Shown: in pieces, positions 4,696-5,512 of the stretch
How the letters are laid out: each line of letters opens with the position of its first letter
Position numbering within the stretch: position 1 is the first letter of the stretch
Source: Candidatus Methanodesulfokora washburnensis
Lineage (GTDB): Archaea; Korarchaeota; Korarchaeia; Korarchaeales; Korarchaeaceae
Reading direction: 5' to 3'
Length of the DNA stretch: 36,062 nucleotides
Assembly (NCBI RefSeq): GCF_003947435.1
Contig: NZ_RCOS01000026.1
Location: forward strand, 1-36,062
Position numbers and translations under genes: made by a program
The notes under the pieces: generated by a model
What the model was told of the DNA's origin: nothing
Database searches by the model: none
What the model saw: the letters and a program-made list of their open reading frames with translations, nothing else

Positions 4696-4748
4696 ATCTT
4701 CCTGCTTTTTCAGAAATAACTGCTTAATCTATGATTTCTCATGTTTAC

Positions 4749-4984
4749 CAAAAAAGTGCCCAGAAAGCCCAGAGCTAAAGCTCTGGGATGAGTGGGCAGA
4801 ACTTAAATATCGGCTCATGATAGTTGTGTTAAGCGAGTCGCTCATGCGGGCTATGGGCTACATGCCCATAGCAGGGGCTGATAGGGCATTATGCCCTGGT
4901 CTTGACACAGCCCTGAACTCGGTAGGATGAGGCCTCAGGCTGACAAACCGGGAATCTCCCGGCTTTAGCCGTGGAGAATGTCAA
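4749..4984 (+). mobile_element. Non-autonomous IS200/IS605-family element (MITE-like, no TnpA or TnpB)
   Basis: The element lies between TTTAC at 4744-4748 and TCAA at 4981-4984. Single-strand-transposing IS608-type elements use a TTAC left cleavage site and a TCAA right site. The left end has a two-step hairpin: outer arms TGCCCA (4757-4762) and TGGGCA (4793-4798), inner arms CCCAGAGC (4768-4775) and GCTCTGGG (4780-4787), loop TAAA. The right end has a subterminal hairpin, arms CTCCCGGC (4956-4963) and GCCGTGGAG (4968-4976), loop TTTA, as in OrfB/TnpB right ends. Between them a frame from ATG 4817 to TGA 4930 encodes 37 residues ending TALNSVG, which I read as a TnpB 3'-end remnant. There is no room for a transposase, so movement would need enzymes supplied in trans. 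Confidence 0.75.
4850..4984 (+). ncRNA. Candidate omega-RNA (TnpB guide RNA scaffold) remnant
   Basis: The last part of the IS605-type element is densely structured. A perfect 9-bp hairpin GCTATGGGC/GCCCATAGC lies at 4850-4872 and a palindrome AGGGCAT-T-ATGCCCT at 4883-4897. The terminal CGGC-TTTA-GCCG hairpin is followed by GAATGTCAA. From memory, the ISDra2 guide RNA ends with a similar GACTTTAGTC hairpin and TTCAA just before its guide. If this RNA is made, its guide would be the flank starting at 4985. Transcription is not shown by the sequence, and no TnpB is in the window. Confidence 0.4.
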
Positions 4985-5087
4985 ATTAGAAGCTAGGAAG
5001 AAATTTGATTTTTCCAGAACTCGTTTTTGCCTATGATTGCAGCCGGGATTACAGTATGTTTTATCTTTTCATTTGTTGAAGCTAAAG

Positions 5088-5096: not shown

Positions 5097-5122
5097 GCAA
5101 GCTTCACATAAACTGGGTTTGT

Positions 5123-5209
5123 GCGGCCGTAGTCTAGCCTGGAGAGGATGGAGGCCCTCCATGGTGCCGAGGAAAGCCTCAGACCCGGGTTCAAATCCCG
5201 GCGGCCGCA
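5123..5209 (+). tRNA. tRNA-Gly(UCC) with 13-nt intron at position 37/38
   Basis: Acceptor arms GCGGCCG (5123-5129) and CGGCCGC (5202-5208) pair fully, with discriminator A5209. The T arm is CCGGG-TTCAAAT-CCCGG (5185-5201), the D stem GTCT/GGAT, and the anticodon stem GAGGC (5151-5155)/GCCTC (5176-5180). The 20 bases between the anticodon stem arms resolve as loop CCTCCA...A with an intron at 5162-5174. CCTC (5156-5159) pairs with GAGG (5169-5172), giving a 4-bp helix with two 3-nt bulges, the splicing-endonuclease BHB motif. Cleavage gives anticodon UCC, and the body resembles archaeal tRNA-Gly. Position 33 is C instead of the near-universal U. CCA is not encoded. Confidence 0.88.
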
Positions 5210-5512
5210 TCAGCTTATTCTTCTTAGGATGACCCTGAAGTGGAAATCTGTGAATCTGTATTTCATGAGCACTTTTTCAAGCGAATCCGAAAATGCACAT
5301 GGATGCCTGCATACAGGAACTCTCTTTGCCCTGAAGGCTATGCTCATCCACTCGTCTACATCGGGTATTTTTCCATCCGTTAGACTTCTTATGAAAGCTA
5401 TAACTAAATCTGACAGCAGATTCTTAGATTTTTCATCATTAAAGCCTCTTTTCTCGGAGATCTTCCTTACAACTTCTGAAAGCTCTTTCTCAAGCTCATC
5501 CAATTCTTCCAT
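5210..5512 (-). CDS. Small hypothetical protein
   Basis: I do not recognise this 100-residue protein. The first 35 residues are charged and helical (EELDELEKELSEVVRKISEK). The second half contains DVDEWMSIAFRAKRVPVCRHPCAF, with two cysteines five apart, and ends basic. The stop codon directly abuts the 3' end of the tRNA gene on the opposite strand. It lies 23 bases downstream of the next small gene (5536-5811) on the same strand and is probably co-transcribed with it. No membrane segment or signal peptide is visible. Confidence 0.6.
   Translation of the reverse strand: MEELDELEKELSEVVRKISEKRGFNDEKSKNLLSDLVIAFIRSLTDGKIPDVDEWMSIAFRAKRVPVCRHPCAFSDSLEKVLMKYRFTDFHFRVILRRIS

Follow-up and report, generated by a model that had tools for sequence, protein, structure and literature searches.

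In IS608, the left cleavage site TTAC (CL) goes with the guide AAAG (GL) and the right cleavage site TCAA (CR) with the guide GAAT (GR) (PMC5934647). PATEs are defined as elements that have no protein-coding capacity and no terminal inverted repeats, carry near-terminal IS605-type palindromes, and occur in multiple copies (PMC3119063). Protein-less IS605 elements that include part of the tnpB 3′ end are already known (PMC3119063, PMC7290912); among such derivatives are the PATEs of Haloquadratum walsbyi (e.g., HqIRS71) and the PATE-like element of Halanaerobium hydrogeniformans, the latter made up of the left-end hairpin, the last 58 nt of tnpB, and the complete right end. The TnpB omega-RNA (or reRNA) of OMEGA systems such as ISDra2 consists of a scaffold formed by the tnpB 3′ end and the right end, with a guide taken from the flank, and a role of these systems in retention is known (PMC10278001). 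Archaea also carry IS1341-type elements, which are tnpB-only. Unlinked omega-RNA loci for IscB and TnpB have reportedly been seen (by Altae-Tran in 2021 and Meers in 2023).

Here we describe a 236-bp element at positions 4749–4984 of a 36,062-nt stretch of DNA (the window) from Candidatus Methanodesulfokora washburnensis, whose genome assembly (2.94 Mb, 179 contigs) is called G000 below. As in IS608, its guides lie at the 5′ foot of subterminal hairpins and insertion occurs 3′ of TTAC without target duplication, but it has no internal tnpA or tnpB and its left hairpin stem is two-step, with an outer and an inner part. It has every feature by which PATEs are defined and, since no Y1 HUH transposase (PF01797) was found in the element or the genome, it is a non-autonomous IS200/IS605 relative and not an autonomous IS. 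No RNA role was considered for the PATEs, whereas here a covarying scaffold lies behind a TATA-like box and recurs in three deletion classes. It shares with the OMEGA omega-RNAs the derivation of scaffold and guide, and differs from them in having no linked nuclease gene and no Rfam family. Its parent and the orthologs of that parent in Geocrenenecus, Terraquivivens, and others are of the IS1341 type, from which the window element differs in lacking nearly all of tnpB. We consider it probable (about 0.62) that what we describe is a mobile guide-RNA gene relying on TnpA and TnpB from other elements, by the mechanism proposed below. The novelty lies in a family of omega-RNA-only elements that falls into several classes and combines a promoter-like box with a complete scaffold, in the coexistence of two end codes within a single genome, and in the M3 module.

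Anatomy and end code of the element

The element, which belongs to class M1 (see below), starts 53 bp after the aIF2-gamma stop codon and ends 137 bp before a tRNA-Gly gene; all features given here are on the forward strand. Thirteen copies in its own genome, 12 of them complete and tnpB-less and one with tnpB, have these boundaries, which are further defined by the ungapped empty sites that a same-genus genome offers for two sister copies. The pentanucleotide TTTAC can be read at 4744–4748, and its last four bases (4745–4748) are the left cleavage and target site TTAC, which stays in the flank. The left-end hairpin (4757–4798) has an outer stem, 4757–4762 with 4793–4798, and an inner stem, 4768–4775 with 4780–4787, both held by compensatory changes: across 19 elements 94.4% of its cells are paired with 52 two-sided changes, and none of 500 shuffles reached its covariation score. 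At the foot of the inner stem lies the left guide AAAG (4764–4767), the same tetranucleotide in the same position as in IS608 (PMC5934647). At the other end are the right guide GAAT (4952–4955), the right-end hairpin CTCCCGGC-TTTA-GCCGTGGAG with its TTTA loop (4956–4976), which both folding and tail covariation indicate, and the cleavage site TCAA (4981–4984), identical to the IS608 CR (PMC5934647). The whole element folds better than dinucleotide shuffles both as DNA (z = −6.1) and as RNA (z = −4.5). A first-pass annotation made from the sequence of the window had described a 236-bp IS605/IS608-type miniature with both ends intact, and its coordinates, hairpins, TTTAC, TCAA, and 37-codon frame were all exact.

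All four IS608 tetranucleotides (TTAC, AAAG, TCAA, and GAAT) are thus present in the window element, with guides and sites pairing as in IS608. The same code holds beyond this copy. The loci fetched contain 55 right ends, in which the fourth bases of GR and CR form the combination T:A 39 times, G:C nine times, C:G twice, and A:T once, with four others; it is this cross-tabulation that identifies the right guide. At left ends the fourth base of the guide likewise covaries with that of the target site, TTAC preceding nearly all ends with the guide AAAG and TTAT those with AAAA. The covariation of the IS608 guide/target code in archaeal families confirms cleanly, in nature, a rule drawn from one element. 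A second miniature family of the same genome, family B (C166, C62, C27a, C101, and C156; loci L042, L033, L034, L036, and L039), consists of tnpB-less omega-RNA miniatures in which the guides are AAAA and GAAG and the sites TTAT and TCAC, a shifted form of the IS608 code that follows the same pairing. The parent TnpBs of family B (C73 and C135) differ from that of the window family and are intact in their own genome.

Between the ends, an archaeal TATA-like box, CTTAAATA, occupies 4802–4809 and is found in nearly all copies at element position 53–63; it is a putative promoter, with a transcript start expected near 4830. The 37-codon frame (4817–4930) joins N-terminal tnpB codons (ending SESLM) in frame to the last ~27 codons, RAMGYMPIAGADRALCPGLDTALNSVG. 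A coding role for this frame was discarded, since other copies have stops or frameshifts there. The 139 nt from 4846 to 4984 match the omega-RNA covariance model R1 with 171 bits. The first-pass annotation had noted an omega-RNA-like tail, and homology and covariation bear this out; its position needs correction, as the structure starts inside the 37-codon frame (at ~4846) and not after it. Within the scaffold is an extra hairpin, AGGGCATTATGCCCT (4883–4897).

Copies, parent, and mobility

A blastn search of the element's own genome (E ≤ 1) gave 48 matches, and a covariance model of the tail found 15 full-length tails above 150 bits there, 14 without tnpB and one with an interrupted tnpB. Thirteen copies are complete from TTAC to TCAA: 12 lack tnpB (236, 238, 238, 244, 245, 247, 252, 288, 292, 301, 303, and 304 bp), and the remaining one, with tnpB, measures 1193 bp. 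Copy C114 has TTAT in place of TTAC at its left site, and two further copies of tnpB-less architecture are truncated by contig ends. Older copies (C100, C105, C131, and C159) have decayed, and the decay of C100, C131, and C105 indicates that individual copies are not maintained by the host. A 57-bp form on contig C66 (L038:1006-1062) has the left and right hairpins fused and nothing but ends; the 52-bp terminal-only PATEs of Haloquadratum parallel it. No copy was found in viral_contigs by a single degenerate pattern search.

The first-pass annotation had proposed looking for a full TnpB element with the same ends, and the 1193-bp copy on contig C66 is one, with an interrupted tnpB. In this copy tnpB follows immediately after the left end and there is no tnpA. 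The direct parent is a tnpB-only (IS1341-type) element, and so the window element has lost tnpB (~940 bp relative to the parent, L043:2246-3304) but no tnpA; of the earlier claim that both genes were lost, only the part on tnpB stands. Orthologous tnpB-only elements, with ends identical in type to those of the window family, occur in Geocrenenecus (TnpB 85% identical), a Nitrososphaeria MAG, Terraquivivens, a Bathyarchaeota, a Thaumarchaeota, a Methanophagales MAG, and others. The extra hairpin is in all G000 copies, including the tnpB-bearing one, and is missing from the orthologous elements elsewhere in archaea, so the miniatures descend from a parent of their own lineage.

Relative to the C66 parent the miniatures fall into three classes. 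In class M1 (the window element, C114, C87a, C134, and C149) parent bases 1–108 are fused to 1049–1193; class M2 (C132b, C59, and C66b) has bases 1–63, a spacer, and then 1039 or 1051 to 1193; and class M3 (C132a, C87b, C124, C46, C161, and C143) has bases 1–98, its own spacer of 55–75 nt, and ~1053–1193. To judge from these junctions, the three classes formed separately. Common to all three are the left end, a box of the TTAAATA type at position 53–63 (the variant CCTAAATA in C143), and the last ~141–155 nt, which begin where the covarying RNA begins.

To find empty sites we joined copy flanks at the expected site and searched the first six joined flanks in relatives. In the same-genus genome G002 the empty site of C59 aligns with 85% identity over 280 bp and no gap near the joint, and that of C134 is ungapped across the joint with 84% identity over 203 bp; these ungapped joints show precise insertion 3′ of TTAC without target duplication. 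No exact empty site was found for the window copy, since the G002 intergenic DNA is too diverged and the G001 interval is only ~30 nt, so the empty-site comparison suggested earlier succeeded for the two sister copies and not for the window locus. Genomes G001, G003, G004, G006, and G007 have no element between aIF2-gamma and the tRNA gene, only ~30–100 nt. The sister-copy empty sites and the lack of such a copy at this locus in relatives show that this is a mobile element and not a fixed RNA gene, and the earlier description of the element as mobilisable agrees with these observations and with its many genome copies. A lone element with no other copy or related full element in its lineage, or its conservation in place in distant relatives as a fixed RNA gene, had been named as findings that would count against that description, and we obtained neither.

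Two observations on insertion sites may be added. G002 carries a different, decayed IS605-like miniature in its aIF2-gamma/tRNA-Gly interval (L053), reflecting either repeated insertion into this spot or chance. Copy C124 (L012) interrupts a reading frame (..LVNTGF/TSEEPDILMP..); joining its flanks restores an open frame that resembles an aspartyl-protease-like domain.

The retained tail and its possible use in trans

The tail was aligned in 23 sequences, 16 from G000 and seven from other archaea. Standard pairs fill 97.7% of its pair cells, with 48 two-sided changes at 12 pairs; these values for pairing and two-sided changes were reached by none of 500 shuffles, and structures slid along the alignment were only 29–48% paired. 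Pairing reaches 99.8% of cells when the alignment is limited to the 14 tnpB-less copies, even though the former tnpB frame has stops in C134 and C46 and frameshifts in C46 and C161. Two-sided changes among these 14 copies are all in helix 1, where they divide the copies into two groups, and they may have arisen in two tnpB-bearing parents and then been inherited. Homologous to the tnpB 3′ end plus the right end and conserved in secondary structure, the retained tail is by homology and covariation identifiable as an omega-RNA scaffold. No Rfam family matches it.

We propose that the element arose by internal deletion from a tnpB-only IS605 element, keeping the left end, the TATA-like box, the scaffold, and the right end. 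An IS608-type Y1 TnpA acting in trans would cut single strands 3′ of TTAC and TCAA and insert the element 3′ of a new TTAC. Its own promoter would then give an RNA with ~155 nt of scaffold ending in TCAA, followed by ~16–20 nt of the new flank, and a cognate TnpB would take up this RNA in trans. TnpB would cut the element-free allele, that is, TTTAC followed by the guide (TTTAC and then ATTAGAAGC at the C26 locus), and repair would restore the element. The sequences establish the mobility in this scheme; we infer the action of TnpA in trans, the loading of TnpB with RNA in trans, and the function of the miniature's RNA.

At the window locus the predicted flank-encoded guide is ATTAGAAGCTAGGAAGAAAT (4985–5004), of which ~16–20 nt would be used, its position following from OMEGA biology (PMC10278001). 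The first-pass annotation had the guide pointing at the aIF2-gamma/tRNA interval. It does match there, but at the occupied locus the preceding five bases are GTCAA and not TTTAC, so the RNA could address only the element-free allele and not the occupied locus. The assembly has no second site with TTAC followed by this guide.

The cognate TnpB matches PF07282 and PF01385. Its only gene in G000 (C66) has an in-frame TAG where orthologs carry Trp, the next best TnpB there is 42% identical, and a profile search of G000 found no Y1 TnpA (PF01797). An intact cognate TnpB in the same genome, which would complete an OMEGA functional unit, was thus not found in this assembly, although with 179 contigs the assembly is incomplete and another cognate tnpB could be hidden. 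With both proteins seemingly broken or missing, the window copy may now be dormant, and the earlier idea that TnpBs elsewhere in the genome use its guide stays unproven. In other archaea the cognate TnpB orthologs have intact frames. Terraquivivens has TnpA and TnpB between ends that match those of the window family, and its genome also holds tnpB-less copies alongside a cognate TnpB that is intact.

What favors the reading of the miniature as a mobile guide-RNA gene is the combination of copies without tnpB, three classes that share tail and box, covariation in the tail and left hairpin, a covarying IS608 code, empty sites, intact orthologous TnpBs, and the presence together of TnpA, TnpB, and miniatures in Terraquivivens. 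Against it count the lack of TnpA in the genome, the TAG in the sole cognate tnpB, the chance that the helix 1 changes were inherited, and the decay of older copies. The strongest alternative, which we regard as unlikely, is that this is an ordinary PATE with mobile ends only, in which the tnpB 3′ end was kept as a physical part of the right end and the RNA is inert. PATEs with part of the tnpB C-terminal coding region have been described without an RNA role (PMC3119063, PMC7290912), the assembly has neither an intact cognate TnpB nor a TnpA, and recent amplification could explain most of the within-genome similarity. However, three deletion classes keep the same ~141–155 nt, although the 57-bp ends-only derivative shows that a copy can do without this tail and IS608 TnpA requires the terminal hairpin and guide only. 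The RNA pairs hold while the reading frame breaks, the promoter-like box is retained, and in another class tnpB has given way to an additional structured RNA module whose compensatory changes span several archaea.

Much less probable is co-option by the host, in which the RNA and a nuclease-dead or repressor-like TnpB would regulate genes at specific loci, as TldR does. The cognate TnpB family (L043:2246-3304, L092-L100) does have Gly at the canonical RuvC-II Glu, and the tnpB in G000 carries a stop. However, an alternative Glu, six residues ahead of the zinc finger in a position (Ealt) known from Fanzors and some TnpBs (PMC10711439), is retained in each of the ten TnpB sequences spanning this part of the protein. 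We therefore rejected the idea that the Gly makes this family nuclease-dead; its members are predicted to be active nucleases, and only the TAG disables the local copy. The copies are moreover scattered, differ in their guides, and decay, and we found no case of a copy held in place across species. That the interval between aIF2-gamma and tRNA-Gly harbors a fixed non-coding RNA gene of the host, as the strong structure might suggest, is hardly credible given the many copies elsewhere in the genome, the five relatives that lack the element in this interval, and the different decayed element that G002 has there.

If RNAs of this kind work in trans, one TnpB would gain many guides from protein-less elements that protect their own sites. 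Such an arrangement would lead, by a simple evolutionary step, from a transposon guide RNA towards guide genes that stand apart, as those of CRISPR arrays do, and would make a testable prediction about the persistence of protein-less IS605 elements.

The M3 module and the neighboring tRNA gene

The spacer of class M3 is a module of ~60 nt that the window copy lacks. We found it in six archaeal genomes, with eight occurrences in G000, at least 22 in Terraquivivens, and others in four further genomes (L010:1439-1505, L153:1439-1505, and L172:1435-1505 are examples), attached to the tails of at least three TnpB families. The 29 other loci (window, tnpB-bearing, and family B) gave no match to it at E ≤ 0.01, and it has no Rfam family. 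Its stems P1 and P2 interleave to form an H-type pseudoknot with compensatory pairs that include GCCCGAA/TTCGGGC, GCTGGAA/TTCCAGC, and GCTCGAA/TTCGAGC. Natural stem partners beat all 300 swaps, at 6.30 of 7 against at most 5.96 for P1 and 6.22 against at most 6.13 for P2; the best partner was chosen within a range of positions, and P2 leads its best swap by little. We rejected a small ORF in the module (MSKxPNKA..), as it has stops in C132a and C124 as well as indels, yet the RNA stems hold.

Our broader suggestion is a tentative one, with the odds somewhat against it: that omega-RNA-only elements are a self-perpetuating class of archaeal mobile guide-RNA genes, served by the TnpA and TnpB of other elements, and that in class M3 the module is a dedicated trans-guide part that replaces tnpB. 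If so, the module might serve, for example, in 5′-end formation or in stability without a linked TnpB.

Downstream of the window element, the tRNA-Gly(TCC) gene at 5122–5211 is 90 nt long and the gene in the same place in G006 is 77 nt; the window gene appears to hold an intron of ~13 nt after the anticodon.
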